Shown one piece after another: positions 45,952-60,671 of a DNA stretch of 64,000 nucleotides; position 1 is the first letter of the stretch; each line of letters starts with the position of its first letter. Position numbers and translations under genes: made by a program. The notes below the pieces were generated by a model. That model saw nothing but the letters and a program-made list of their open reading frames with translations, was not told the DNA's origin and searched no databases. Origin of the DNA: Deltaproteobacteria bacterium (GTDB lineage: Bacteria; Myxococcota; UBA727; VGSZ01); assembly GCA_016177705.1 (NCBI GenBank), contig JACOUT010000002.1:124001-188000 (forward strand), in the 5' to 3' direction.

Positions 45952-46124
45952 ACCGCTGAGGCGCCGACGGAGGGCGGCGAGCGTAGGTCGCGCCGACAAC
46001 GCTGTGATCGCGAGCGCGATGACCACGCCGTGACGCGGGTCGTGACGCGGCGCGTTCGCGCCTGATCTCGGCTTGCGACCACCGCCCCGAAGGGCTACCC
46101 GTGGGGTCCATTTTGGGTCAGAAT

Positions 46125-46153
46125 CGAGTTTCTTCACTTTTTGCTGAAACTCG
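46125..46153. promoter_or_regulatory. AT-rich leader with inverted repeat upstream of the PUFA operon
   Basis: CGAGTTTC at 46125-46132 pairs with GAAACTCG at 46146-46153 across a 13-base AT-rich loop. It lies in a 100-bp AT-rich island in otherwise very GC-rich DNA, directly before the enoyl reductase coding bias begins. It may be an operator or leader hairpin of the PUFA operon. Confidence 0.4.
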
Positions 46154-46190
46154 CTGTCCACGTCGAGAAACGTCGAAAAAGCACGCAATT

Positions 46191-47918
46191 TTGCCGTTGA
46201 AACCCGCCGACCGCCGCCTGCTGCCCTCGCTCGCGTCCTGGACCCCCGGGACGGAGCCCGCCGCCTTCGATGCGGAGGGCCTGACGCTGGCGGCGCGGCG
46301 GGTTCGTGAGCCCTGTCTCGTCGTGCAGGACACGAGCAGCGGGCGGGTGGGCGTGGGCTTCGCCGGCAGCGCCGCGTCGACGGGGCCGTGCGCGCTCGTC
46401 GCTGCGCTGCCGCCGCTGTGGCCCGAGCACCTGGGCAACCGCGCCTTCCTCGAGGCGCACGGCTGCCGCTTCCCCTACGTCGTCGGCGAGATGGCGCAGG
46501 GCATCACCACCGCGCGCATGGTGGTGGCCGCGCACGAGGCGGGCCTGCTCGGCTTCTTTGGCGCCGCCGGTCTGCCGACGACGAAGATCGAGGCCGCCAT
46601 CGACGAGATCCAGGCGGGCGTTGCCCGGCACGCGGGCAAGGACCCCGACTGCTGGGGCGTCAACCTCATCCACTCGCCGAGCGAGCCCGAGCTGGAAGAC
46701 GCCGTCGTCGACCTCTACCTCAGGCGTGGCGTGCGGCGCGTCTCGGCGTCGGCGTACATGGCGCTCACCCCCATGCTGGTGCGCTTCGCCGCCAGCGGGC
46801 TGTGGCAAGACTGCGGCGGGCGCATCCACCGCCGCAGCTTTGTCTTCGGCAAGATCTCGCGCCCGGAGACGGCGCGCGCCTTCTTGCGGCCGCCGCCCGC
46901 CGCCATGCTGGAAGCGCTGGTGCGCGAGGGCAAGCTGACGGCCGAGGAGGCGCGACTCGCGGCGCGCATCCCCGTCGCCACCGACCTCACCGTCGAGGCC
47001 GACAGCGGCGGCCACACCGACAACCAGGCGCTGCCCGCGGTCTTCCCCACGGTGAAGCAGCTCGCGCTCTCGTGCGCGGCCGAGCTCGCGCTTGATGCGC
47101 CGGTGCGGGTGGGCGCCGCCGGCGGGCTCGGCACGCCCGACGCCGTCGCCGCCGCCTTCGCCATGGGCGCCTCCTACGTGCTCACCGGCAGCGTCAACCA
47201 GAGCGCCGTCGAGAGCGGGCTCTCCCTGCGCGGGCGGCAGTTGCTCGCGCAAGCGCGCCTGGGCGACACCACCATGGCGCCCGCCGCCGACATGTTCGAG
47301 CTCGGCGTCAAGGTGCAGGTGCTCAAGCGCGGCACGCTGTTCGCGCAGCGCGCCCACAAGCTCTACGAGCTGTACCGCGCCTTCCCTTCGCTCGAGGCCA
47401 TCCCCGCCGTCGAGCGCGGCAAGCTCGAGCGCGAGATCCTGGGCGGCAGCGTCGAGGAGCTGTGGGCATCCACGCGCGCCTTCTTCGAGCGGCGCGACCC
47501 GCGCCAGATCGAGCAGGCCGAGGCCGACGCCAAGCACAAGATGGCGCTGGTGTTCCGCGCCTATCTCGGCCAGGCCTCCAAGTGGGCCATCACGGGCGAC
47601 GACAAGCGCGCGCTCGACTTCCAGATCTGGAGCGGGCCGGCGCTCGGCGCCTTCAACGCCTGGGTGCAGGGGTCCTTCCTCGAGCCGCTCGAGGCCCGCA
47701 CCGTCGGCCAGATCGCGTGGAACCTGCTCGAGGGCGCGGCCGTCGTCACGCGCGCGGCTGCGCTGCGCGCCGCCGGCTGCCCGCTGCCCGATCAGGCTTT
47801 CCTCTTCACGCCACGCCCGCTCGCGCTCGTCGACGAGGCGGGGGCTTCGAATGAACGCACACCGCGCGGGCCCGCGACCAGCGGTAGCTACAGCGCGAGC
47901 GCACGGGAGCTGCAATGA
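46191..47918 (+). CDS. pfaD: PUFA synthase enoyl reductase (PfaD-like; Pfa1 in myxobacteria)
   Basis: About 575 residues. FMN-dependent nitronate-monooxygenase-like TIM barrel of the PfaD family: FLEAHGCRFPYVVGEMAQGI, DPDCWGVNLIHSPSEPELED, VRRVSASAYMALTP, VEADSGGHTDNQ, VRVGAAGGLGTPDAVAAAFA and GASYVLTGSVNQ. It reduces the enoyl double bonds during PUFA chain building. The start is uncertain: a longer frame reaches a GTG at 46101, but the codons before 46190 lose the G/C third-base bias and hold an inverted repeat, so a TTG at 46191 or 46197 is preferred. The stop overlaps the next start (ATGA). First gene of the PUFA operon. Confidence 0.92.
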   Translation: MPLKPADRRLLPSLASWTPGTEPAAFDAEGLTLAARRVREPCLVVQDTSSGRVGVGFAGSAASTGPCALVAALPPLWPEHLGNRAFLEAHGCRFPYVVGEMAQGITTARMVVAAHEAGLLGFFGAAGLPTTKIEAAIDEIQAGVARHAGKDPDCWGVNLIHSPSEPELEDAVVDLYLRRGVRRVSASAYMALTPMLVRFAASGLWQDCGGRIHRRSFVFGKISRPETARAFLRPPPAAMLEALVREGKLTAEEARLAARIPVATDLTVEADSGGHTDNQALPAVFPTVKQLALSCAAELALDAPVRVGAAGGLGTPDAVAAAFAMGASYVLTGSVNQSAVESGLSLRGRQLLAQARLGDTTMAPAADMFELGVKVQVLKRGTLFAQRAHKLYELYRAFPSLEAIPAVERGKLEREILGGSVEELWASTRAFFERRDPRQIEQAEADAKHKMALVFRAYLGQASKWAITGDDKRALDFQIWSGPALGAFNAWVQGSFLEPLEARTVGQIAWNLLEGAAVVTRAAALRAAGCPLPDQAFLFTPRPLALVDEAGASNERTPRGPATSGSYSASARELQ

Positions 47919-50900
47919 CGGGTCGTCGCCAGGAGCCCATCGCCATCGTCGGCCTCGGCGGGCTGTTCCCCGGCAGCCTCGACGTCGCCGAGCTGTGGAA
48001 CCACATCCTGCGCAAGAGCGACCTCGTCACGGAGGTTCCGGCGACGCACTGGCGGGCCGCCGACTACTTCGACGCCGACCCGAAGGCGCCCGACAAGACC
48101 TACGCCAAGCGCGGCGCGTTCTTGCCCAAGGTGCCCTTCGATCCGCTCAAGGAGGGCATGCCGCCGAGCCTTTTGCCGTCGACGGACACCTCGCAGCTGC
48201 TGGCGCTGCTGGTCGCGCGCACCACGCTCGAGGAGGCCATGGGCGCGCTCGAGCGCGCCGACAAGACGCGCGTCTCCTGCCTGCTCGGCGTCACCTCGGG
48301 GCAGGAGCTGTTCGGCCAGATGGCCTCGCGGCTGCGGCAGCCCGAGTGGCGCGCCGGCATGCGCGCTGCCGGCATCGACGAGGCCGCGGTGGAGCGCGCG
48401 GTCAAGCTGATCGGCGACGCCATGGTGCCCTGGACCGAGGCCACCTTCCCGGGGCTGCTCGGCAACGTGGTGGCGGGGCGCGTGGCGAACCGCCTCGACC
48501 TCGGCGGCACCAACGCCGTCACCGACGCCGCCTGCGCCTCCTCCTTCGCCGCCATCTCCATGGCCGTCGACGAGCTGGTGCTGCGTCGCGCCGACCTGGT
48601 GCTGACCGGCGGCGTCGACGCGCTCAACGACATCTTCATGCACCTGTGCTTCTCGAAGACGCCGGCCCTGTCGCCGTCGGGCGACTGCCGGCCCTTCGAC
48701 GCCTCGGCCGACGGCACGTTGCTCGGCGAGGGCGTGGGCATGGTGGCGCTCAAGCGCCTGGCAGACGCCGAGCGCGACGACGACGCCATTTACGCGGTGC
48801 TGCGCGGCGTGGGCACGTCGAGCGACGGCCGCAGCAAGAGCGTCTACGCGCCGGTGCCCTCGGGGCAGGCGAGCGCGCTTCGGCGCGCCTACGCGGCGGC
48901 CGGGTACTCGCCCGACACCGTCGAGCTCGTCGAGGCGCACGGCACCGGCACCCGCGCCGGCGACGTCGCCGAGCTCGAGGGCCTGCAGATCGCGTTTGGC
49001 GAGAGCGGCCGGGTCGACCGCCAGTGGTGCGCCGTCGGCTCCGTGAAGAGCCAGATCGGCCACTGCAAGTCGGCGGCCGGCGCCGCCGGCCTCATCAAGG
49101 CCGCGCTCGCGCTGCACGAGGGCGTGCTGCCGCCCACCTGCAAGGTGACGACGCCGAACCCCGCCGCGCGCTTCTCGGAGAGCCCGTTCTACGTCAACAG
49201 CGAGGCGCGGCCCTGGATCCGCGGCGGCGATCACCCGCGGCGCGCCGGCGTGTCGTCGTTCGGCTTTGGCGGCAGCAATTTCCACCTGGCGCTCGAGGAG
49301 TACACCGGCGAGGGCAGAAGGCCCGCGCGATTGTCGCGCCGCGACGTCGAGCTGTTCGCACTCTCCGCCGACCGCGACGACGCGCTGCGCGCGCGCGCGC
49401 GCGCGATCGCCGCGGCGCCATCCGACGACCTGGCGCGCTGGTCGAAGGACGTGCTCGCCTCGTTCGAGGCCAAGGCGCCCTGCCGCGCGGCCTTCGTGGC
49501 GGCCAGCATCGACGAGGCCAAGGCGCGCCTGGATGAGATCGCTGCCGGCAAGAGCAGCCCGCTCGTGTTCACCGGCAAGGGCGCGCCCGGCAAGGTGGCC
49601 CTGCTCTTCCCCGGCCAAGGCAGCCAGCAGGTGGGCATGGGCGCGGCGCTCGCCATGCACTTTGGCGCCGCGCGCGCCGTCTACGATCGCGCCGAGGATG
49701 CGGCGCACCTCGGGCGCGTGATCTTCCCGCCACCCGCCTTCACCGACGAGGAGCGCGCCCAGCTGCACGCCCGGCTCACCAAGACCGAGCACGCGCAGCC
49801 CGCGCTCGGGCTGTGCTCGATGGCGACCCTGCGCGTGCTCGAAGAGCTCGGTCTTGGCTGCGACATGGCCGCGGGCCACAGCTTCGGCGAGCTGTCCGCG
49901 CTGTGTGCCGCGGGCGCCTTCGACGAGGCCACGCTGCTGTCGCTCGCGACGACGCGCGGTGCGCTGATGGCGCGCGCCTCGAGCGAGGCGGGCGCCATGG
50001 CCGCGGTGCTCGGCGACGCGCGCTTGGTGCCCGAGCAGCTCGCCGGCCTGCGCGTGGTGGTGGCCAACCACAACGCACCCGACCAGTGCGTCATCTCGGG
50101 TGAGGTGTGCGACGTCGACCTCGCGATACAGCGCCTGGCGGGCGCGGGCTTCACGGTCAAGAAGCTGCTCGTGTCGACGGCATTCCACTCGCCGCTCGTC
50201 GAGGGCGCGGTCGAGCCCTTCGCCGCGGCGCTGGCGGCCGTCGAGGTCAAGGCGCCGCGCTTCCCGGTCTACGCCAACACCACGGCGAAGCCGCACGGCG
50301 ACGTCGCGTCGGTGAAGGCCGAGCTGGCGCGCCAGATCGGTGCGCCCGTGCGCTTCGTCGACGAGGTTCGCGCCATGCGCGAGGCCGGCGCCTCGATCTT
50401 CGTCGAGGTGGGGCCCGGCTCGGTCCTGACCGGCCTGGTGTCGCGCATCGCGCCCGACGCCATCGCCATCGCCACCGACGGCAAGGGCGACGGGCTCAGG
50501 CCCTTCGTCACCGCGCTCGCACGCCTGTGTGCTGCCGGCGTTTCGCTCTTGCTCGATCGCCTGCCCTTGCCCGCCGCGTCGCGCGCGCCGGTGGCGAGCA
50601 AGACCAGCGTGTGGATCAACGGCGCCAACGTCGGCAAGCCCGCGCTGCCCAAGCCCGCGCCCGTCGTCGTGCCCGTCGCCGTCGTGCCCGTCGCCGTCGC
50701 GCCCATCGCTGCCGCGCCCGTCGCCGTCGCGCCACCTTCACCTCCCGCCCCTGCCGTCAGCTCCCCCGTGACCTCGAGGCCCTCGCCCATGACCAAGCAC
50801 CCCGCTCCCCTCTCCTCCGGTTGGCTCGACGTGTTCCGCGAGGGCCAGCGTCAGTCGGCCGAGGCGCACCTGGCGCTGCAGCGCGCGCTGGTCGACTCGC

Positions 50901-51811
50901 ACCAGGCCTACCTGCAGGCCTTCGAGGCCACGCAGGCGGCGCTGCTCGCGGCCGCGTCGGGCTCGCCCGTCGTCGTGGGCGCACCCGTGCAGCTGACCGC
51001 GCCCCCGCGCCAGCTCTCCCTTCCTCCCATGCCCGCGGCGCCCGTCGTGGTGCCCGCGCCCGCACCTGTCCCCGCGGCTGCCAAGGGCAACGGTCATGGC
51101 AATGGGCATGCGCCCGCAAACGGGCACGGAAATGGCCACGGGAACGGCAACGGCAATGGCAACGGCCACCACAAGGCGCCGGTGCTGCCCTCGCCCTCGA
51201 TCGTGACGCCGGCCGTCGCCAAGGCGAACGGCGCGGCGGACGCGCGCTCGCTGCTGCTCGAGGTGGTGGCCGACAAGACCGGCTACCCGAAGGAGTCGCT
51301 CGACGACGCCATGGGCCTCGAGAGCGACCTTGGCATCGACTCGATCAAGCGCGTCGAGATCCTGGGCGCGCTCAAGGACAAGCTGCCCGGCGCCGACAAG
51401 CTCGACGCGCTCAAGCTCGCGCAACTCAAGACGCTCGGCGAGATCGCGGCCGCGCTGCGCGCCGTCAGCGGAAACGGTGGCGCGCACCCCTCGCCGGTGC
51501 CGGCCGCGCCGGCGCCGACCACGTCCAGCACCTCCAAGGTCGTGGCTGCGGCCGGCGGCTCCATCCTGCCCGCGCTCCTCGACGTCGTCGCCGAGAAGAC
51601 CGGCTACCCGAAGGAGGCGCTGTCGCCCACGATGGCGCTCGAGGCCGACCTCGGCGTCGACTCCATCAAGCGCGTGGAGATCCTGTCCGCGCTCAAGGAG
51701 CGCGTGCCCGCGCTGCCGCCGGTCGACGCCGCGCGCATGGCGCAGCTGCACACGCTCGGTGAGATCGCGGGCGCGCTCGAGGGCACGAACGGAGCTGCGC
51801 GCCCTTTCTGA
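47915..51811 (+). CDS. pfaA: PUFA synthase KS-AT-ACP-ACP subunit (PfaA/Pfa2 N-terminal part)
   Basis: 1298 residues. Ketosynthase about 8-465 with Cys207 in DAACASS, His in VEAHGTGT and His in IGHCKSAAG. Malonyl acyltransferase about 560-870 with LLFPGQGSQQ and Ser656 in AGHSFGELSALC. An Ala/Pro/Val linker and a Gly-Asn-His tract lead to two tandem ACPs with phosphopantetheine serines Ser1143 (LGIDSIK) and Ser1250 (LGVDSIK). Known PUFA synthases carry more ACPs, often four to nine. The protein stops 20 residues after the second ACP, where relatives continue into KR. The stop is preceded by a CCCTTTC heptamer (see the separate entry). ATGA overlap with pfaD. Confidence 0.95.
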   Translation: MTGRRQEPIAIVGLGGLFPGSLDVAELWNHILRKSDLVTEVPATHWRAADYFDADPKAPDKTYAKRGAFLPKVPFDPLKEGMPPSLLPSTDTSQLLALLVARTTLEEAMGALERADKTRVSCLLGVTSGQELFGQMASRLRQPEWRAGMRAAGIDEAAVERAVKLIGDAMVPWTEATFPGLLGNVVAGRVANRLDLGGTNAVTDAACASSFAAISMAVDELVLRRADLVLTGGVDALNDIFMHLCFSKTPALSPSGDCRPFDASADGTLLGEGVGMVALKRLADAERDDDAIYAVLRGVGTSSDGRSKSVYAPVPSGQASALRRAYAAAGYSPDTVELVEAHGTGTRAGDVAELEGLQIAFGESGRVDRQWCAVGSVKSQIGHCKSAAGAAGLIKAALALHEGVLPPTCKVTTPNPAARFSESPFYVNSEARPWIRGGDHPRRAGVSSFGFGGSNFHLALEEYTGEGRRPARLSRRDVELFALSADRDDALRARARAIAAAPSDDLARWSKDVLASFEAKAPCRAAFVAASIDEAKARLDEIAAGKSSPLVFTGKGAPGKVALLFPGQGSQQVGMGAALAMHFGAARAVYDRAEDAAHLGRVIFPPPAFTDEERAQLHARLTKTEHAQPALGLCSMATLRVLEELGLGCDMAAGHSFGELSALCAAGAFDEATLLSLATTRGALMARASSEAGAMAAVLGDARLVPEQLAGLRVVVANHNAPDQCVISGEVCDVDLAIQRLAGAGFTVKKLLVSTAFHSPLVEGAVEPFAAALAAVEVKAPRFPVYANTTAKPHGDVASVKAELARQIGAPVRFVDEVRAMREAGASIFVEVGPGSVLTGLVSRIAPDAIAIATDGKGDGLRPFVTALARLCAAGVSLLLDRLPLPAASRAPVASKTSVWINGANVGKPALPKPAPVVVPVAVVPVAVAPIAAAPVAVAPPSPPAPAVSSPVTSRPSPMTKHPAPLSSGWLDVFREGQRQSAEAHLALQRALVDSHQAYLQAFEATQAALLAAASGSPVVVGAPVQLTAPPRQLSLPPMPAAPVVVPAPAPVPAAAKGNGHGNGHAPANGHGNGHGNGNGNGNGHHKAPVLPSPSIVTPAVAKANGAADARSLLLEVVADKTGYPKESLDDAMGLESDLGIDSIKRVEILGALKDKLPGADKLDALKLAQLKTLGEIAAALRAVSGNGGAHPSPVPAAPAPTTSSTSKVVAAAGGSILPALLDVVAEKTGYPKEALSPTMALEADLGVDSIKRVEILSALKERVPALPPVDAARMAQLHTLGEIAGALEGTNGAARPF

Positions 51812-51847
51812 GCGGAGACGCCGACACGGGTCGCGACCCGGCGTCTC
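51802..51847 (+). promoter_or_regulatory. Candidate programmed -1 ribosomal frameshift element
   Basis: The heptamer CCCTTTC (51802-51808) is in register C-CCT-TTC with the upstream frame and is followed at once by TGA. After 6 nt a stem begins: GAGACGCC (51815-51822) with GGCGTCTC (51840-51847), holding an inner GGGT/ACCC stem (51828-51831, 51836-51839). A GGAG lies at 51791-51794, 7 nt before the heptamer. Slipping by -1 reads CCC TTT CTG AGC and continues open into KR-DH up to 54153. The layout mirrors dnaX-type sites. Alternatives are a sequencing indel or a true split with hairpin. Confidence 0.5.
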
Positions 51848-51864
51848 ACGACGAGACCACGCGC

Positions 51865-54153
51865 GTGCCTCGGGCCGTCCTCGAGTGGGCGGCCTGCCCG
51901 CTCGCGTCGGCGAGCACCGATGCGCGCTTCGGCGTCGAACAGCAGCACGGCGCCGAGCGCTCGCTCGCGCTGCTGGTCGCGGGTGCGCACGGCCGCGCGC
52001 TCGCCGCCGCGCTGGCGACGCGCGCACCCGGGCTGCCGCTCGACGTGCTCGAGGGGATGGCGCCGCTGCCCGCGCGCGCCCACACCGTCGTCGACGCGCG
52101 CGCCCTCGACCCGGGCGACGACGTGCCCGGCGCGCTCTCGCGCCTCAAGGGCTCGCTCTTCCTGTTGCAGCCGTCGCGCACGCTCGGCGTGCGGCGCTTG
52201 GTGGCGCTCACGCGCGAGGACGGCAGCGACGCTGCCGCCGTGGCCGCGGGCATCTCGGGCTTGATCAAGACCGCCGCGCTCGAGTGGCCCGAGCTGCGCT
52301 GCGCCGTGGTCGACGTCGCGCCCGACCTCGACGCGGCCGGCGTGCTGCTCGAGGAGCTGGCTGCCGGCCTGCCCGATCGCGAGGTGCGCAGGCTGCCGGG
52401 CCCGGCCACGTCGACGCGCCTGGTGCCGCGCGTGGTCGCGCGCCCGGTGGGGCACGGCGCGCGCCGCGCGCATGTCACCTCGTCGTCGGTGGTGGTGGCG
52501 AGCGGCGGCGCCCGCGGCGTCACCGCCACCACGCTGCTCGCGCTCGCACGTGAGGCGCGCCCCGCCGTGCTGCTGCTCGGTCGCACGGCCGTCGATGCGC
52601 CCGAGCCCGCCTGCTGCCAGGGGCTTCCCGACGAGGGTGCCATCAAGCGCGCGCTGCTCGACGACGCCAAGCGGCGCGGCGAGCCGGTGCAGCTGCCGCG
52701 CATCGGCGCGGCCGCGCAGGCCGTGCTCGCGGCGCGCGAGATTCGCGCCTTCATCGGCGCGCTGCAGGGCGAGGGCGCGCGCGTCCTCTACCGTGCCGTC
52801 GACGTGCGCGACCCCGCCGCCGTGGCTGCAGCGTGCGACGAGGCGCGCGCTGCCTTTGGCCCCATCACCGACCTGGTGCACGGCGCCGGCGTGCTCGCCG
52901 ACAAGAAGATCGAGGACAAGACGCCCGAGCAGGTCGACCGCGTCATGGACACCAAGGTGCTCGGCCTGCGCGCGCTGCTCGCGGCCACGCGCGAGGACCC
53001 GCTTCGCACCGTGTCGCTGTTCTCGTCGGTGGCCGGCCGCTTCGGCAACGTCGGCCAGGTCGACTACGCCATGGCCAACGAGGCGCTGAACCACCTGGCG
53101 GTTGCCTTGGCCACACGCGAACACGCGGGGCGCGGGCTCGTCGTCAAGTCGCTCAATTGGGGCCCCTGGGAGGGCGGCATGGTCACGCCCGCCCTCAAGA
53201 AGCTGTTCGCCGAGCGTGGCGTGGCCGTGCTGAGCCACGAGGACGGCGCGCGCCACTTCGTCGACGAGCTGACGACGCTGGCCGACCCCGCGGTGGAGGT
53301 GATCATCGGCGGCGAGCTTGCGCCCGAGCAGCGTTCGCGCGCCGCCACGGGGCACGGGAGCGCGGCCGAGGCGACCGCCGGGCCCACGCGCATGCACCTC
53401 GACGGCGCCTCCTGGGGCATCCTCGCCGACCACGCCATCGCCGGCGTGCCCGTGCTGCCGGTGGTGGGAGCGCTCGAGCTGTTTTCGCGCGCGCGCCCCG
53501 ACGTGCGCGCCCTCGCCGACCTCCACGTGCGACGCGGGCTGCGCCTGCCGCGCCTGTTCGAGGGCGGCCACGACGTCGAGATCCGGGAACAGGACGGCAC
53601 GCTCACACTGGTCACGCCCGGCGAGGGCGCGCCGCACTACACGGCGCGCGTCGCCGACGCCGTCGACACGGCGCCGCTCGATCGGCCACGGGGCGTGCTG
53701 CCCGCCGCCGCGAGCGCGCTCTACCAGGAGCTTCTGTTCCACGGGCCGCGCTTCCACCTGGTCGAGGCGGTCTCCGCCTGCGGCGAGGACGGCATGATCG
53801 CGCAGGTGCGCGGCGTGCGCGCCGCGCGCTGGCCGGGCGAGTGGCGCACCGACGCCGCCGCCGTCGACGGCGCGCTGCAAGCGGCGCTCTTGTGGGCGCG
53901 CCACCTGACGGGCGGCGCCTTCTTGCCGACGGCCATCGCCTGCGTCTCGCTGGCGCAGCCCGGCGACGGCCCGCTCACCTGCGTGCTCAAGGCGCGCACC
54001 GCGCCCACCGGGCCGCGCGCCGTCGTCGACGCGTGGCTGCTCGACTCGGATGGCGCGGTGCGGGTGACGCTCACGGGCGTCGAGATTCACCGCCTGCCCG
54101 ACGACAGAGCGTTTGCGCGACGGCCCGACGCCGAGGCCGGGAGCGCGCGGTGA
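51865..54153 (+). CDS. PUFA synthase KR-DH subunit (PfaA/Pfa2 C-terminal part)
   Basis: 762 residues if started at GTG 51865, which has only a weak ribosome binding site. The frame is in fact open from 51763. The ketoreductase shows the NADP loop VVASGGARGVTATT (about residue 212) and the catalytic Ser and Tyr in SLFSSVAGRFGNVGQVDYAMANE (about 385-405). The final about 240 residues are a polyketide-type dehydratase: HAIAGVPVLP (His523, HxxxGxxxxP) and DGALQ (Asp668, DxxxQ), both catalytic motifs intact. In relatives KR and DH follow the ACPs on the same chain, so this is the missing C-terminal part. Stop overlaps the next start (GTGA). Confidence 0.9.
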   Translation: MPRAVLEWAACPLASASTDARFGVEQQHGAERSLALLVAGAHGRALAAALATRAPGLPLDVLEGMAPLPARAHTVVDARALDPGDDVPGALSRLKGSLFLLQPSRTLGVRRLVALTREDGSDAAAVAAGISGLIKTAALEWPELRCAVVDVAPDLDAAGVLLEELAAGLPDREVRRLPGPATSTRLVPRVVARPVGHGARRAHVTSSSVVVASGGARGVTATTLLALAREARPAVLLLGRTAVDAPEPACCQGLPDEGAIKRALLDDAKRRGEPVQLPRIGAAAQAVLAAREIRAFIGALQGEGARVLYRAVDVRDPAAVAAACDEARAAFGPITDLVHGAGVLADKKIEDKTPEQVDRVMDTKVLGLRALLAATREDPLRTVSLFSSVAGRFGNVGQVDYAMANEALNHLAVALATREHAGRGLVVKSLNWGPWEGGMVTPALKKLFAERGVAVLSHEDGARHFVDELTTLADPAVEVIIGGELAPEQRSRAATGHGSAAEATAGPTRMHLDGASWGILADHAIAGVPVLPVVGALELFSRARPDVRALADLHVRRGLRLPRLFEGGHDVEIREQDGTLTLVTPGEGAPHYTARVADAVDTAPLDRPRGVLPAAASALYQELLFHGPRFHLVEAVSACGEDGMIAQVRGVRAARWPGEWRTDAAAVDGALQAALLWARHLTGGAFLPTAIACVSLAQPGDGPLTCVLKARTAPTGPRAVVDAWLLDSDGAVRVTLTGVEIHRLPDDRAFARRPDAEAGSAR

Positions 54154-57100
54154 GCACGCTGCCGCCCATCGCGGTGGTCGGGCGCGGCTGCGTCCTGCCC
54201 GGCGCGCGCACGCCCCACGCGCTCGGCGAGCTGGTGTTCGAGAAGCGCCGCGCGCTGACCGAGGCCGGCGCCGATCGCCTGCGCATCGACCCTGCGCTGG
54301 TGCGAGGCAGCGGCCCCGACCGCGCCGTGTCGCTGATGGGCGGCCTGGTCACCGACTTCACCCTCGACGACGCGGGCTTGGCGCTGCCGACGGCCGAGCT
54401 GCTGGCACTCGACCCGCTGTTCTCGTGGCTCTGCAGCGCGGGGCGCGATGCGCTCGTCGACGCCGGCTTCGACACGCCCCTCGCCGGCGTGCGCGCGGGC
54501 GCGGTGGTGGGCAACCTCTCCTTCCCCACCGAGGCCATGACGCTGTTCGGTGAGCGCGCGGCCCTCGACGACCTGCTCGGGCGCGAGCAGCGGCGCACGC
54601 TCGGCGCGCCCTGGGCAGCCGGTCCCGGCGGGCCGGGCGACGACGGGCTCGGCGACGCGCGCGATCGCTTCATGTCCGGCCTTCCGGCGCACCTGCTCGC
54701 GCAAGCCCTGGCGCTCGACGCCGGCGCCTACTGCCTCGACGCGGCGTGCGCGTCGTCGCTGTATTCGATGCGCTTGGCCGCCGCCGCGCTCGCCGAGCGG
54801 CGCGCCGACCTCATGCTCGCGGGCGCCGTCAATCGCGCCGACTGCTTATTCCTCCACGTCGGCTTCACGGCGCTGCAAGCGATGTCACCGACGGGACAAT
54901 CGCGGCCCTTCGATCGACGCGCCGACGGCCTGGTGCCGGCCGAGGGCTGTGTGCTGGTAGCGCTGATGCGCCTCGACGACGCCGTGGCGCAGGGCAAGAC
55001 CATCCACGGCGTGGTGCGCGGCATCGGCCTGTCGAACGACGGGCGCGCCAAGAACCTGCTCGCCCCCTCCACCGAAGGGCAGGTGCGCGCGCTGCGCGGC
55101 GCCTGGAAGAGCGCTGGCCTGTCGCCCACCGACGTCGACTTCATCGAGTGCCACGCCACCGGCACGCCCACCGGCGACCAGACCGAGCTGGTGAGCATGA
55201 GCGAGGTGTTCACGCGCACCGACAGCAGCGCACGTGGGCCGCTGCCGCTCGGCTCGCTCAAGGGCAACCTCGGCCACCTGATCACCGCCGCCGGCGGCGC
55301 CGGCCTGCTCAAGCTGCTCGAGGCCATGCGGCGCGAACAACTGCCGCCGAACCCTGGGCCGCTCGAGCCCATCGAGCTCGCGGGGCCGACTGGGCGCTTC
55401 ACCGTGCAAACCGAGCCGGCGCCGTGGCTGCGCGGCGCACATGCGCGCCGCGCCGGGCTGTCCGCGTTTGGCTTCGGCGGCAACAACGCCCACGTCGTGG
55501 TGGAGCAGCACGAGCCGGTACGTTTTGTCACTTCCGTGCCTGTGCAAGTGCAGCGCTCCCCGCTCGCGGTCGTGGCGCTCGCCTGCGAGGCCGCGCACGG
55601 CGACCAGCCGATCGCGGTAGCGCTCGACGGCCTGCGCTTCCCGCCCAATGACCTCAAGGAGTCGATCGCGCAGCAGCTCCTGGCCTTCGAAGCCGGCCGT
55701 CGCGCGGTTGCTGCGCTCGGCGCACGCAACGAGGCGGTGCTGCCGCGCGAGCGCACCGGCGTGTTCGTCGGCATGGGCGCCGACGTGTCGGTGACCACGC
55801 CCGGCCTGCGCTGGCGCGCACCGCGCCTGGCGCGACGGCTGGCGCACCGGGGCGGCGTCGACGACGGCACGCTCGCGCAAGCCATCAAGGACGCGGCCAT
55901 GCCGCCGCTGCCCGCCCAGGGCGTGCTCGGCTGCATGCCGAACATCCCGGCGAACCGCCTGAACGTGCAGCTCGACCTGCGCGGCCCCGGCTTCACGGTG
56001 TCTGCCGAGGAGCGCTCCGGCCTGGCGGCGCTCGAGGTGGCGCGCGCGCTGCTCGACGCGGGCGAGATCGACGCGGCGCTGGTCGGCGCCACCGACGCCT
56101 GTCGCGATCCGCGCCACCAGCGGGCGCTCGCGGCGCTGCGCAAGAGCCCGGCGCCCGCCGGCGACGGCGCGTGCGTGCTGGTGGTGATGCACGAGGAGCG
56201 CGCTCGTTCGCTCGGCCTGCCGGTGCTGGCCTTGCTCACCGACGACCATGGCCAAGGCGCGGACCACGGCGGCGGCACCGTGAGGCTGTCGGGCGCTTCG
56301 CTCGCGCGCTTCGGTGACACGCACGCCGCGCGCGGCCTGCTCGATGTCGCGGTCGCCATCGAGGGCGCGGCGGCGGGCGTGCTGCCCTCAGGTGAGCCGT
56401 GGCCCGCGCTCGGCGAGCGGCGCGGCACGCTCGACGTCGAGGCGCTGGCGACGCGCAGCTCGACGGTGAGCTTCTCGGCCGCCACCACGCCGCTCGCGCA
56501 CGCGCCGCCGCTCCTACTGGTCGGCGCGCCCACGCGCGCGGCGCTGATCGACACGCTGCGCGCCGCGTCGGCCGACGCACGCGGCGCCACGCTGGCCGGC
56601 CGCCCGGCCCTCGAGCGCGGGCCTTGGCGCGCGGGCATCATCGGCACCGACGACGCCCAGCTCGGCGCGCGCGCCCGGCAGCTCGCCGACGCGCTCACCG
56701 CCGGGGGCGAGCGCGTCGAGGGCGGTCAGGCGCGCGAGGCGCCGCGCGTCGACGTGGCCGAGGTCGCGCTGCTGTTCGGCACCGCCGCCCAGCAAGGGGC
56801 GTGGGCCGCAGCCGAGCTGTTGCTCGCCTGGCCGAGCGCGGCGCGACGCCTGGCGCGCGCCTTTGGCGACGTGGGCGCGCGCGCCATCCTGGCCGGCGAG
56901 GCCACGCCGGACGCGCCGTTCTTCACCGAGCTGGCGCTCGCCTCCGCGCACATGCAGGTGCTTGCGGGCTTCGCGCTCGACGTGCTCGGCGTGCGCGCGC
57001 GCCGCGCCTGGGGCGTGTCGCTCGGCGAGTCGAACGCGCTGCTCGCTGCCGGCGCCTGGACCGACATGGGCGAGCTGTTCGCCGAGATGCGCGACACGCG

Positions 57101-60100
57101 ACACTTCGACGTCGCCGCGGGCGGCACCTTCGAGGCCGCGCGCGCGCACTGGCGCAAGCTCGGGCGAGGCGAGCCGGCCGGCGGCACGCCCTGGCGCGCC
57201 GTGGTGGTGCGGGCGCCGCTCACTGCCATCGAGCAGGGGCTCGCGCTCCCCGACGTCGCCGGCCGCGCCTTCTTGCTCGTCATCCACGCCGACGACGAGG
57301 CGGAGATCGGCGGCGCGCCCGACGCGGTGGCAGCGCTGCTCCGGCATCTCGACAGCGCCGGCGTAGAGCTGCCGACCATGCCCGCGGTGCACTGCGCGCT
57401 GCTCGAGCCCGCCGCGGCCGCCTATCGCGCGCTGCACCGCCGCGCGCTCTCGGCCACCGACGTCGAGGTCTGGGGCCATGCGGGCCGCATGCCGCTCGAG
57501 CGCGGCCCCGACGCAGTGGCCGACGGCATCCTCGAGCAGGCGCTCGGGTGCGTCGACGTGCGCGCCTCGCTGCGGCAGCTCGCGCACGCCGGCGCTCGCG
57601 TGCTGGTCGACCTGTCGCCGCGCGGCCTGGCCGGCTCCTGGGCCAAGCGCGCGCTGCCCGCCACGGTCGAGGTGGTGTCGCTCGACGGCAGCGCTGCCGC
57701 AGCCGCCTGGGGTGCTCTGCAGCTCGCGCTCGCCGGCGTGCCGCTCGACGTCGAGGGCTTGCTCGGCCCGGCGCGCCTCGCTGCGCGCACCACGGGCCCG
57801 ACCATGCTGGTGCCCGCGCACCGACCGACCGCCACGCTGCGCCGTCCCTCGCTCCGAGCCGAGCGTCTGACGCCGCCACCGCGCCTGCCGCGCACCACCC
57901 CGGCGCCGCCCGCGCCGCCCGCGCCGCTCGCACCGCCCGCGCCGCGGGCGCCACCGCCGAGCCCCCTCCGCGAGGTTCAAGCGGTGCTCGACCGCTCCCC
58001 CGAGATCGGGGGAGCCCCAATGGTCGCCGATGATGGGATCCTCGCTGCGCTCGCCGCACAACGCGACGCCCTGTTCGCCGTGCAGCAGGGCTTCGTCGCG
58101 CACAGCACTGCCGCCCACCAGGCCGCCGTGGCCACGCAGGCCGCGAACGCGCGCCGCCTCGCCGAGCTGGCAAAGGACCACGTTTTCGACGCTGTCGAAG
58201 TGACGATGCCGGCCGAACAGCAGCGGGGCCGCGACGGGCTCGCGCTCTGGGGTCGCCACGACCTCGAGCGCCTCGCCTCGGGCCGCATCGCCGACGTCTG
58301 GGGCGAGACCTTCGCGGTGCAAGACGCCTTCCGCCGCCAGGTGCGCATGCCGGAGCCGCCGCTCTTGCTCGCCGATCGGGTGCTGTCCATCGACGCCACG
58401 CCCGGCGTGCTCGAGAAGGACCGCTCGATCGTCACCGAGACCGACGTCGGTTGGGACGCCTGGTACCTGCACGAGGGGCGCTGCCCCGCCGGCGTGCTCA
58501 TCGAGACCGGCCAGGCCGACCTGTTGCTCGTCAGCTACATGGGCGTCGACTTCGAGAACAAGGGCGAGCGCGTCTATCGCCTGCTCGGCTGCGATCTCAC
58601 CTATCGCGCGCCCCTGCCCATCGCCGGCACCACGCTGCAGCACGACATCCACGTCGACGGCTACGCCACCCACGGCGACACGCGCATCTTCTTCTTCCAC
58701 TCCGACACCTGGGCGCTGAACGACGCCGGCGAGCGCGAGGCGCTGCTGCTGTCGGTGCGCGGCGGCCAGGCCGGCTTCTTCACCGACCTCGAGCTGGCGA
58801 ATTCCGGCGGCGTCCTATGGACACCCGAAAGCGTGGATGCGCGCACCGTGGCGGCGCTGCCGCACGCCAAGGCGCCGCGCCCGACCACCAAGCGCGCGCT
58901 CTCGACCGAGGAGCTGGCCGCGTTCGCGCGCGGCGATGCCTACCGCTGCTTCGGCGACGGCTTCGAGCTGGCACAGACCCACGTGCGCACGCCGCGCATC
59001 GCCTCGGGGCCGCTGTTGCTGATCGACCGCGTCACCGAGCTCGACCTCGAGGGCGGCCCCTGGGGTCGAGGCTCGCTGCGCGCCGAGCTCGACCTCTCGC
59101 CCGAGCGCTGGTTCTTCACCGGCCACTTCAAGGACGACCCGTGCATGCCGGGCACCATCATGTTCGAGGGCTGCCTGCAGACGCTCGCGGTGCTGCTCGG
59201 CGCCGCCGGCTGCACCCTCGAGCGCGACGGCTGGCGCTTCGAGCCCGCGGTCGCCGAGGTCTTCAAGTTGCGCTGTCGCGGCCAGGCCATCCCCTCGTCG
59301 AGGTCCATGGTCTACCAGGTGTTCGTGCGCGCGCTCGTCGACGGGCCCGAGCCCTCGATCACCGCCGACATCCTGGTCACCGTCGATGGCTTGAAGAGCC
59401 TGCTCTGCGAGGCGGTCACGCTGCGCCTGGTGTGCGACGCGCCGCTGTCGTCGCGCCCGGAGTTGCTCGGCCTCGTCGCCAAGCCGAGCGGCGTCGATGC
59501 GGTGGGCGGCGTGGGCAGCGCGTTGCCCGCGGTGGTCGACCAGCGCGCGTTGCTCGCGACCGGCATCGGCCTGCCCTCCGAGGCCTTCCCTGGCCTGTAC
59601 GACGCGTTCGACGGCGGCCGACGCGTGCCGCGCCTGCCGGGTCCGCCCTACCACTTCATGAGCAGAGTGGTGACGGTCGAAGGGCCGCCGATGGGCTCGC
59701 TCGCGCACGGCCTCGATGCGGCCGGCACCCGCGCCGTCGTCGAGTACGACGTGCCGCCGGACGCCTGGTACTTCCGCGAGGCAGCACCTGCGCAGGGGCG
59801 CGCGATGCCCTTCGCGGTGCTGCTCGAGGTGGCGCTGCAGCCCTGTGGCTGGATCTCGAGCTACGTCGGCAGCGCGCTCACCAGCGAGGGGGAGCTCTAC
59901 TACCGAAACCTCGACGGCAAGGGCGCCCGCGTGCACCGCGAGGTGGGCCCCGAGGTGGGGACGCTCGTCGTCACGGCCGCCCTCACCAAGTCGTCGTCCT
60001 CGGGCGGCATGATCATCCAGGAGTTCGAGGTCGCGGTGGCGACGCGCGCGGGCGAGCCCGTCTACGACTGCCATACCGTGTTCGGCTTCTTCCCGCCCGA

Positions 60101-60671
60101 AGCGCTGGCACGTCAGGTGGGCATCGGCGCCACCGACGAGGAGCGCGCATCGCTGGCGGAGCGCGTCGCCGGCTTCGACGTCGTCGACCTGCGCACACAA
60201 CCCGCTCGATACTGCGCGTCGTCCCCGGCGCTGCCCCATCCGATGCTCTTGATGATCGATCGCGTCACCGGCTACTGGCCGGGCGCGTCGAAGTCCGGCG
60301 GCGCGCGCGTGCGCACCGAGAAGGACGTGCGCCTGGACGAGTGGTTCTTCCGCGCGCACTTCTATCAAGACCCGGTGCAGCCCGGCTCACTCGGCCTCGA
60401 AGCGATGGCGCAGGCCATCGAGTGGCTGATGCTCCACGAGGGGCTCGGTGCGTCGCTGACGAGGCCGCGCTTCGTCGTCGATGGGCCGTCGACCTGGAAG
60501 TACCGCGGGCAGGTGCGGCCGACCAATCACCTGATCCAGGTCGAGGTCGACGTCGTCGGCATCGACGCGGTACCAGGCGGCGTGCGCGTGGTCGCCGACT
60601 GCGCGCTCTGGGTCGATGGCCTCAAGATCTACCAGGCGCCGGACTTCACGGTGCGTCTGATCGAGGGATGA
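54150..60671 (+). CDS. pfaC: PUFA synthase KS-CLF-AT-DH-DH subunit (PfaC/Pfa3-like)
   Basis: 2173 residues from GTG 54150 (frame open further upstream, but that part is the shadow of KR-DH). Ketosynthase 1-465 with Cys200 (DAACASS), ECHATGTPTGD and GNLGHLITAAGG. A chain-length factor follows (about 470-780) where the Cys is Glu (FTVSAEERSGLAAL), as in this family. An acyltransferase-like region has GVSLGES (about 955), His replaced by Val. A Pro-rich linker (1247-1270) leads to two double-hotdog dehydratases: hotdogs near 1433, 1650 (HFKDDPCMPGT), 1870 and 2063 (HFYQDPVQPGS). The third lacks the His. No terminal AGPAT domain is present. No ACP. Confidence 0.93.
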   Translation: MSTLPPIAVVGRGCVLPGARTPHALGELVFEKRRALTEAGADRLRIDPALVRGSGPDRAVSLMGGLVTDFTLDDAGLALPTAELLALDPLFSWLCSAGRDALVDAGFDTPLAGVRAGAVVGNLSFPTEAMTLFGERAALDDLLGREQRRTLGAPWAAGPGGPGDDGLGDARDRFMSGLPAHLLAQALALDAGAYCLDAACASSLYSMRLAAAALAERRADLMLAGAVNRADCLFLHVGFTALQAMSPTGQSRPFDRRADGLVPAEGCVLVALMRLDDAVAQGKTIHGVVRGIGLSNDGRAKNLLAPSTEGQVRALRGAWKSAGLSPTDVDFIECHATGTPTGDQTELVSMSEVFTRTDSSARGPLPLGSLKGNLGHLITAAGGAGLLKLLEAMRREQLPPNPGPLEPIELAGPTGRFTVQTEPAPWLRGAHARRAGLSAFGFGGNNAHVVVEQHEPVRFVTSVPVQVQRSPLAVVALACEAAHGDQPIAVALDGLRFPPNDLKESIAQQLLAFEAGRRAVAALGARNEAVLPRERTGVFVGMGADVSVTTPGLRWRAPRLARRLAHRGGVDDGTLAQAIKDAAMPPLPAQGVLGCMPNIPANRLNVQLDLRGPGFTVSAEERSGLAALEVARALLDAGEIDAALVGATDACRDPRHQRALAALRKSPAPAGDGACVLVVMHEERARSLGLPVLALLTDDHGQGADHGGGTVRLSGASLARFGDTHAARGLLDVAVAIEGAAAGVLPSGEPWPALGERRGTLDVEALATRSSTVSFSAATTPLAHAPPLLLVGAPTRAALIDTLRAASADARGATLAGRPALERGPWRAGIIGTDDAQLGARARQLADALTAGGERVEGGQAREAPRVDVAEVALLFGTAAQQGAWAAAELLLAWPSAARRLARAFGDVGARAILAGEATPDAPFFTELALASAHMQVLAGFALDVLGVRARRAWGVSLGESNALLAAGAWTDMGELFAEMRDTRHFDVAAGGTFEAARAHWRKLGRGEPAGGTPWRAVVVRAPLTAIEQGLALPDVAGRAFLLVIHADDEAEIGGAPDAVAALLRHLDSAGVELPTMPAVHCALLEPAAAAYRALHRRALSATDVEVWGHAGRMPLERGPDAVADGILEQALGCVDVRASLRQLAHAGARVLVDLSPRGLAGSWAKRALPATVEVVSLDGSAAAAAWGALQLALAGVPLDVEGLLGPARLAARTTGPTMLVPAHRPTATLRRPSLRAERLTPPPRLPRTTPAPPAPPAPLAPPAPRAPPPSPLREVQAVLDRSPEIGGAPMVADDGILAALAAQRDALFAVQQGFVAHSTAAHQAAVATQAANARRLAELAKDHVFDAVEVTMPAEQQRGRDGLALWGRHDLERLASGRIADVWGETFAVQDAFRRQVRMPEPPLLLADRVLSIDATPGVLEKDRSIVTETDVGWDAWYLHEGRCPAGVLIETGQADLLLVSYMGVDFENKGERVYRLLGCDLTYRAPLPIAGTTLQHDIHVDGYATHGDTRIFFFHSDTWALNDAGEREALLLSVRGGQAGFFTDLELANSGGVLWTPESVDARTVAALPHAKAPRPTTKRALSTEELAAFARGDAYRCFGDGFELAQTHVRTPRIASGPLLLIDRVTELDLEGGPWGRGSLRAELDLSPERWFFTGHFKDDPCMPGTIMFEGCLQTLAVLLGAAGCTLERDGWRFEPAVAEVFKLRCRGQAIPSSRSMVYQVFVRALVDGPEPSITADILVTVDGLKSLLCEAVTLRLVCDAPLSSRPELLGLVAKPSGVDAVGGVGSALPAVVDQRALLATGIGLPSEAFPGLYDAFDGGRRVPRLPGPPYHFMSRVVTVEGPPMGSLAHGLDAAGTRAVVEYDVPPDAWYFREAAPAQGRAMPFAVLLEVALQPCGWISSYVGSALTSEGELYYRNLDGKGARVHREVGPEVGTLVVTAALTKSSSSGGMIIQEFEVAVATRAGEPVYDCHTVFGFFPPEALARQVGIGATDEERASLAERVAGFDVVDLRTQPARYCASSPALPHPMLLMIDRVTGYWPGASKSGGARVRTEKDVRLDEWFFRAHFYQDPVQPGSLGLEAMAQAIEWLMLHEGLGASLTRPRFVVDGPSTWKYRGQVRPTNHLIQVEVDVVGIDAVPGGVRVVADCALWVDGLKIYQAPDFTVRLIEG

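Follow-up and report, generated by a model that had tools for sequence, protein, structure and literature searches.

The pfa2 gene of the window, the 64,000-nucleotide stretch of DNA analysed here, very probably uses −1 programmed ribosomal frameshifting at its ACP–KR linker, with two predicted products of 1298 and 2079 residues. A sequence-only reading had proposed such a frameshift, and comparison with relatives supports it: L178/L302 shares the site, independent lineages have different canonical heptamers at this junction, and fused homologues carry such heptamers with the opposite polarity. The case for the window is built on the L302 match and on recurrence at the same junction. The heptamer, the stop codon and the comparison carry the weight, not the hairpin. 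Across PUFA synthases of several phyla, it appears likely that selection favours two forms of the ACP subunit, with and without KR-DH, by way of a frameshift at the ACP–KR junction, whose heptamer arose or changed often and whose slip-dependent product was flipped repeatedly by small indels, with the pair of products retained.

The pfa2 locus and its candidate slippery site

Pfam assigned KS, AT and two PP-binding domains to the part of pfa2 lying 5' of the stop codon and KR and PS-DH to the part lying 3' of it (Table 1). Taken over both frames and the neighbouring genes, these assignments fit a Pfa2/PfaA subunit of a PUFA synthase, with the order KS-AT-ACPn-KR-DH and with pfaD and pfa3/pfaC adjoining. 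Since ORF A occupies frame 2 and KR-DH frame 1, the latter is read at −1 relative to the former, and frame 1 is free of stop codons from 51763 to 54153. With Pfam domains on both sides, a −1 slip would thus join the two frames without an intervening stop into KS-AT-ACP-ACP-KR-DH, as had been claimed. The full-length product, previously put at about 2080 residues, is computed at 2079 (1298 + 781).

Table 1. Features of the pfa2 locus, in coordinates of the window.
Feature	Position	Strand	Remarks
pfaD/pfa1-like enoylreductase neighbour	46101..47918	+	start codon uncertain; Pfam
pfa2 ORF A, zero frame (frame 2)	47915..51811	+	KS-AT-ACP-ACP, 1298 aa, RPF-stop end
Shine-Dalgarno-like GGAG, 7 nt 5' of heptamer	51791..51794	+	percentile 0.087 of control positions
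Slippery heptamer C_CCT_TTC, zero-frame register	51802..51808	+	direct reading
Zero-frame stop TGA, immediately 3' of heptamer	51809..51811	+	direct reading
pfa2 −1 frame part, KR + PS-DH (frame 1)	51808..54153	+	781 codons plus stop
Two-part stem-loop, 6 nt 3' of heptamer	51815..51847	+	not above background strength
First ATG/GTG/TTG of KR-DH frame past stop (GTG)	51865..51867	+	without clear Shine-Dalgarno
pfa3-like neighbour, KS + FabA-type domains	54162..60671	+	start codon uncertain; Pfam

ORF A ends in the codons CGC CCT TTC TGA, in which the heptamer holds the correct X_XXY_YYZ register, and a one-base slip there changes the reading to CCC TTT CTG AGC GGA and on into KR-DH. In Escherichia coli, H_HH.U_UU.Y heptamers are among the most shift-prone, C_CC.U_UU.C being named as high-level, and C_CC.Y tetramers are shift-prone by themselves (PMC4066793). 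The GGAG, the in-register CCCTTTC and the immediate TGA of the sequence-only reading were all recovered at their positions. The GGAG is weak as a Shine-Dalgarno-like (SD-like) site, SD-like sequence being enriched over all sites taken together. The stem-loop is likewise present, with outer arms GAGACGCC (51815–51822) and GGCGTCTC (51840–51847) and an inner stem GGGT/ACCC, but its strength is no greater than that of GC-matched sequence. At −20.8 kcal/mol, it gives a z of −0.21 against GC-matched shuffles, and its stability falls at percentile 0.37–0.44 of controls, though its spacing is right and the stems of split genes, taken together, are enriched. Because background sequence folds equally well, the window hairpin was dropped as proof of frameshifting.

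The source-genome background comprised 848 kb, with 685 called genes and 262,475 codons. In-register X_XXY_YYZ heptamers with Y = A/T number 37 in these 848 kb, and a heptamer stands directly 5' of the stop codon in one gene of the 685, namely window pfa2. Since CCT accounts for only 3.7% of the proline codons in this genome, the chance of the slippery codon choice for RPF is 0.028. Scanning the 848 kb for frame switches revealed no further break that has 80 or more codons on each side and lacks a nearby start, although the scan can miss breaks with a usable start beyond and would route a window-like break through a later start. The assembly therefore appears to contain few indels, subject to these misses; nearly all scan candidates without a start were model artefacts of 0–4 codons.

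Split and fused junctions among relatives

Scanning the named genomes and searching ~1300 further genomes yielded 188 distinct ACP–KR junctions, of which 168 are fused, 18 are split at −1 and 2 are split at +1. One of the +1 cases (L101) is a run of N at an assembly gap, leaving a single genuine +1 split against 18 at −1. That junction, L251 (G398:C44), reads AGG GGA CTT CAG CCG GCG TGA and either recalls the layout of prfB, with an SD-like run before CTT, or may reflect a simple indel. An apparent frame break inside KR in G001/G002 (L012/L101 of G002, same family) coincides with a run of N and a contig end and was set aside as not biological. The plasmid collection contained distant KR matches only.

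Comparison with relatives, set beforehand as a refuting test, gave a divided outcome. In the distant genome G340, L178/L302 shares the site: CGC CCT TTC TGA GCG G, 16 bases, is identical to the window, with 23/26 identical overall, a common sequence of CGCCCTTTCTGAGCGG and the −1 peptide PFLSG in both. In contrast, part of the test, taken at face value, counts against the frameshift: the four nearest relatives of the window (L039, L040, L101 and L011) are fused at the junction and lack the heptamer, so the window site is isolated in its own small clade. As C CCT TTC TGA occurs in one other genome only, the window's own comparative support consists of one match together with the general pattern.

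Other heptamers occupy the junction in further −1 splits. L346 and L347 carry A AAA AAG TAA with long complementary arms 3' of it; L328 and L358 carry GGAGGT, a 6 nt spacer and G GGA AAG followed by the stop; and L232 carries G GGA AAC GCC TAG with a 12-bp stem, seen by eye. A AAA AAA with strong stems is found in L088 and L105, and C CCA AAA in L059. Stems at split sites are enriched (nominal p 0.001), while those of the GGGAAA clade (L328, L330, L337, L351, L352, L355, L357 and L358) are mostly not. In that clade, a CCGTCGGCGGTGACCG-like stretch just 3' of the heptamer is well conserved; simple hairpin scores are weak there, and the stretch might act as a further stimulator, for instance a pseudoknot. 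Transcriptional slippage is conceivable at the A7/A8 sites of L088 and L105 but not at CCCTTTC, and was rejected for the window. A clade of eight species (L305, L115, L306, L097, L316, L169, L166 and L168) is split at −1 with the heptamer absent. Here the stop is preceded by GTGGAGGT or a near variant, its context is CCC or CCT (CAG in two) and TAG, and a near-invariant hairpin, CGCCCCCCCGACGAGGGGGGGCG, follows. This arrangement may perhaps reflect a P-site slip at the stop codon.

Fused linkers contain 34 in-register heptamers, 21 of them followed in the −1 frame by a stop no more than three codons away, against 14 heptamers with 0 such stops and 12 with 2 in the other two registers. Codon shuffles of the fused linkers (1000) gave 1.4 on average and 6 at most, against the 21 seen, and the rest of the same fused ORFs, 191,610 codons, gave 13; kinship inflates these counts, and enrichment p-values are too small because related sequences were treated as independent. 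The linker count includes the AT-rich heptamers of L288 and L294, which are probably due to chance. C CCT TTT GA is present in fused L112, L104, L304, L309, L267 and L389, and G GGA AAG/A in seven fused species. Because the −1 stop comes within three codons, a slip in these fused genes should truncate the product, in the manner of dnaX. In split and fused genes alike, most heptamer sites are found 43 to 60 codons past the ACP serine, and SD-like sequence upstream has a median percentile of 0.02 at sites with a near alternative stop. L389 (G1085:C2) shows further apparent frame breaks in ACP and at the start of KR, attributable to assembly errors or decay.

A FastTree phylogeny of KR-DH from 175 proteins shows 22 or more changes of the signal, the tree being approximate and such counts depending on sampling. 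CTGGGAAA is present in every member of a nine-species clade that combines seven fused genes with two split ones. Fused L304 and L309 form the sister group of L302, which is split and has CCCTTTCTGA where these have CCCTTTTGA. Similarly, the sister group of the eight split TAG species is formed by fused L303 and L111, both with C CCT TTT and a hairpin closely resembling theirs. These sister pairs indicate that small indels decide polarity: they should set which product requires the slip, with both predicted products persisting across the flips. Polarity flips would thereby provide an uncommon chance to see what conservation acts on, namely the outcome rather than the frame.

Alternative explanations and proposed mechanism

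The break could stem from a sequencing or assembly indel, with one base lost within or close to the CCC or TTT run of a gene that is truly continuous like its nearest relatives. One added base between ~51781 and 51811 would give a single frame, those relatives are indeed fused, and the assembly is divided into 22 contigs and 92% complete. Even so, such an error is improbable, given that L178/L302, from another genome, has the same heptamer, TGA and flank, that the scan of 848 kb found no second break with 80 or more codons per side and no nearby start, and that an accidental deletion is unlikely to leave an in-register heptamer right before a stop, an arrangement confined to one gene in 685. 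Less credible still is a recent but real frameshift mutation in a decaying gene, with a coincidental heptamer. The absence of the heptamer from the nearest relatives would agree with it, yet KR-DH is free of stops for 762 codons and has Pfam-strong domains, its neighbours pfaD and pfa3 are intact, and the break falls exactly in the linker where other lineages split, the distance from ACP serine to stop being 49 codons in the window and 41–61 in the other −1 splits.

A genuine split is about as improbable as an assembly indel. It would require a separate KR-DH protein made by termination–reinitiation from the CTG at 51808, which overlaps the TGA in the window (CTGA), or from the GTG at 51865. 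This GTG lies 56 nt past the stop, with homology to relatives starting near it, GTG is also close to the stop in some split relatives (L328 and L159), and Psychroflexus torquis provides a known case of a split pfaA (PMC3098273). However, the window GTG has no clear Shine-Dalgarno sequence and CTG initiates poorly, the downstream frame of split relatives such as L346/L261 and L232 offers no standard start codon in the first ~70 nt past the stop, and the eight-species clade has no common start codon position beside its stop. The lack of such starts in several split genes argues against simple reinitiation, which moreover fails to explain the retention of these heptamers, together with a −1 stop, in fused homologues.

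Under −1 frameshifting, some ribosomes would read CGC CCT TTC and terminate at TGA, yielding KS-AT-ACP-ACP. Others, probably aided by the upstream GGAG and the stem 6 nt downstream, would move back by one base on C_CCU_UUC in a likely tandem slip, in which the tRNAs for Pro and Phe re-pair with CCC and UUU. Reading would then continue as CUG AGC and yield KS-AT-ACP-ACP-KR-DH, a subunit of 2079 residues. In this way the proportion of carrier/condensing to ketoreductase/dehydratase units would be set by the gene itself, with the short product adding KS-AT-ACP units relative to KR-DH. Slippage at the window site, its frequency and the use of the short product are what we infer from sequence, and the ratio of the two products may matter. 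PUFA yield is known to rise with ACP number (PMC5067506), and for that reason the product ratio could offer a direct means of tuning productivity. If frameshifting is correct, the subunit stoichiometry of an omega-3 synthase would be set on the ribosome, annotation pipelines will miscall such genes as split or as pseudogenes, and one of the two products could vanish unnoticed when a pfa cluster is recoded for another host.

Comparison with known systems

Most known cases of bacterial programmed frameshifting come from dnaX, prfB, mobile elements and phages. The literature searched, which included the 2013 GeneTack survey and the 2016 recoding review and covered subscription papers thinly, so that absence is not proof, yielded no frameshift in a PUFA synthase, in line with the earlier claim of novelty, and none described in any fatty-acid or polyketide megasynthase. 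The type D locus of Psychroflexus torquis has pfaA1 (KS-AT-ACP5) and pfaA2 (KR) split at the ACP/KR position (PMC3098273), the same position as in the window; these are two genes, with no frameshift mentioned. Myxobacterial Pfa2/PfaA resembles the window in its KS-AT-ACPn-KR-DH order and its pfa1/pfaD and pfa3 neighbours (PMC6731297), whereas its known members are single continuous ORFs for which no frameshift is described.

In IS3-family elements and phage tail genes (G-GT), as predicted for the window, a slip makes a longer fusion from two frames, and their G GGA AAG and A AAA AAG heptamers also occur in several split PUFA relatives; window pfa2, however, is a chromosomal biosynthetic gene and neither a mobile element nor a phage. 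With dnaX (DNA polymerase III tau/gamma), the window shares a slippery heptamer and two predicted products in a ratio, together with an upstream SD-like sequence, though a weak one, and a downstream stem, though of ordinary strength. The two differ in gene family and in heptamer, A AAA AAG in dnaX (also in L346/L347) versus C CCT TTC in the window. The description of the site as dnaX-like holds for the slippery heptamer but not for polarity, which is reversed, as a slip in the window would extend the product rather than truncate it. The literal truncating design is instead predicted in the fused relatives, where the polarity of dnaX is matched by PUFA genes with a −1 stop, such as L304, L309, L330 and L353.
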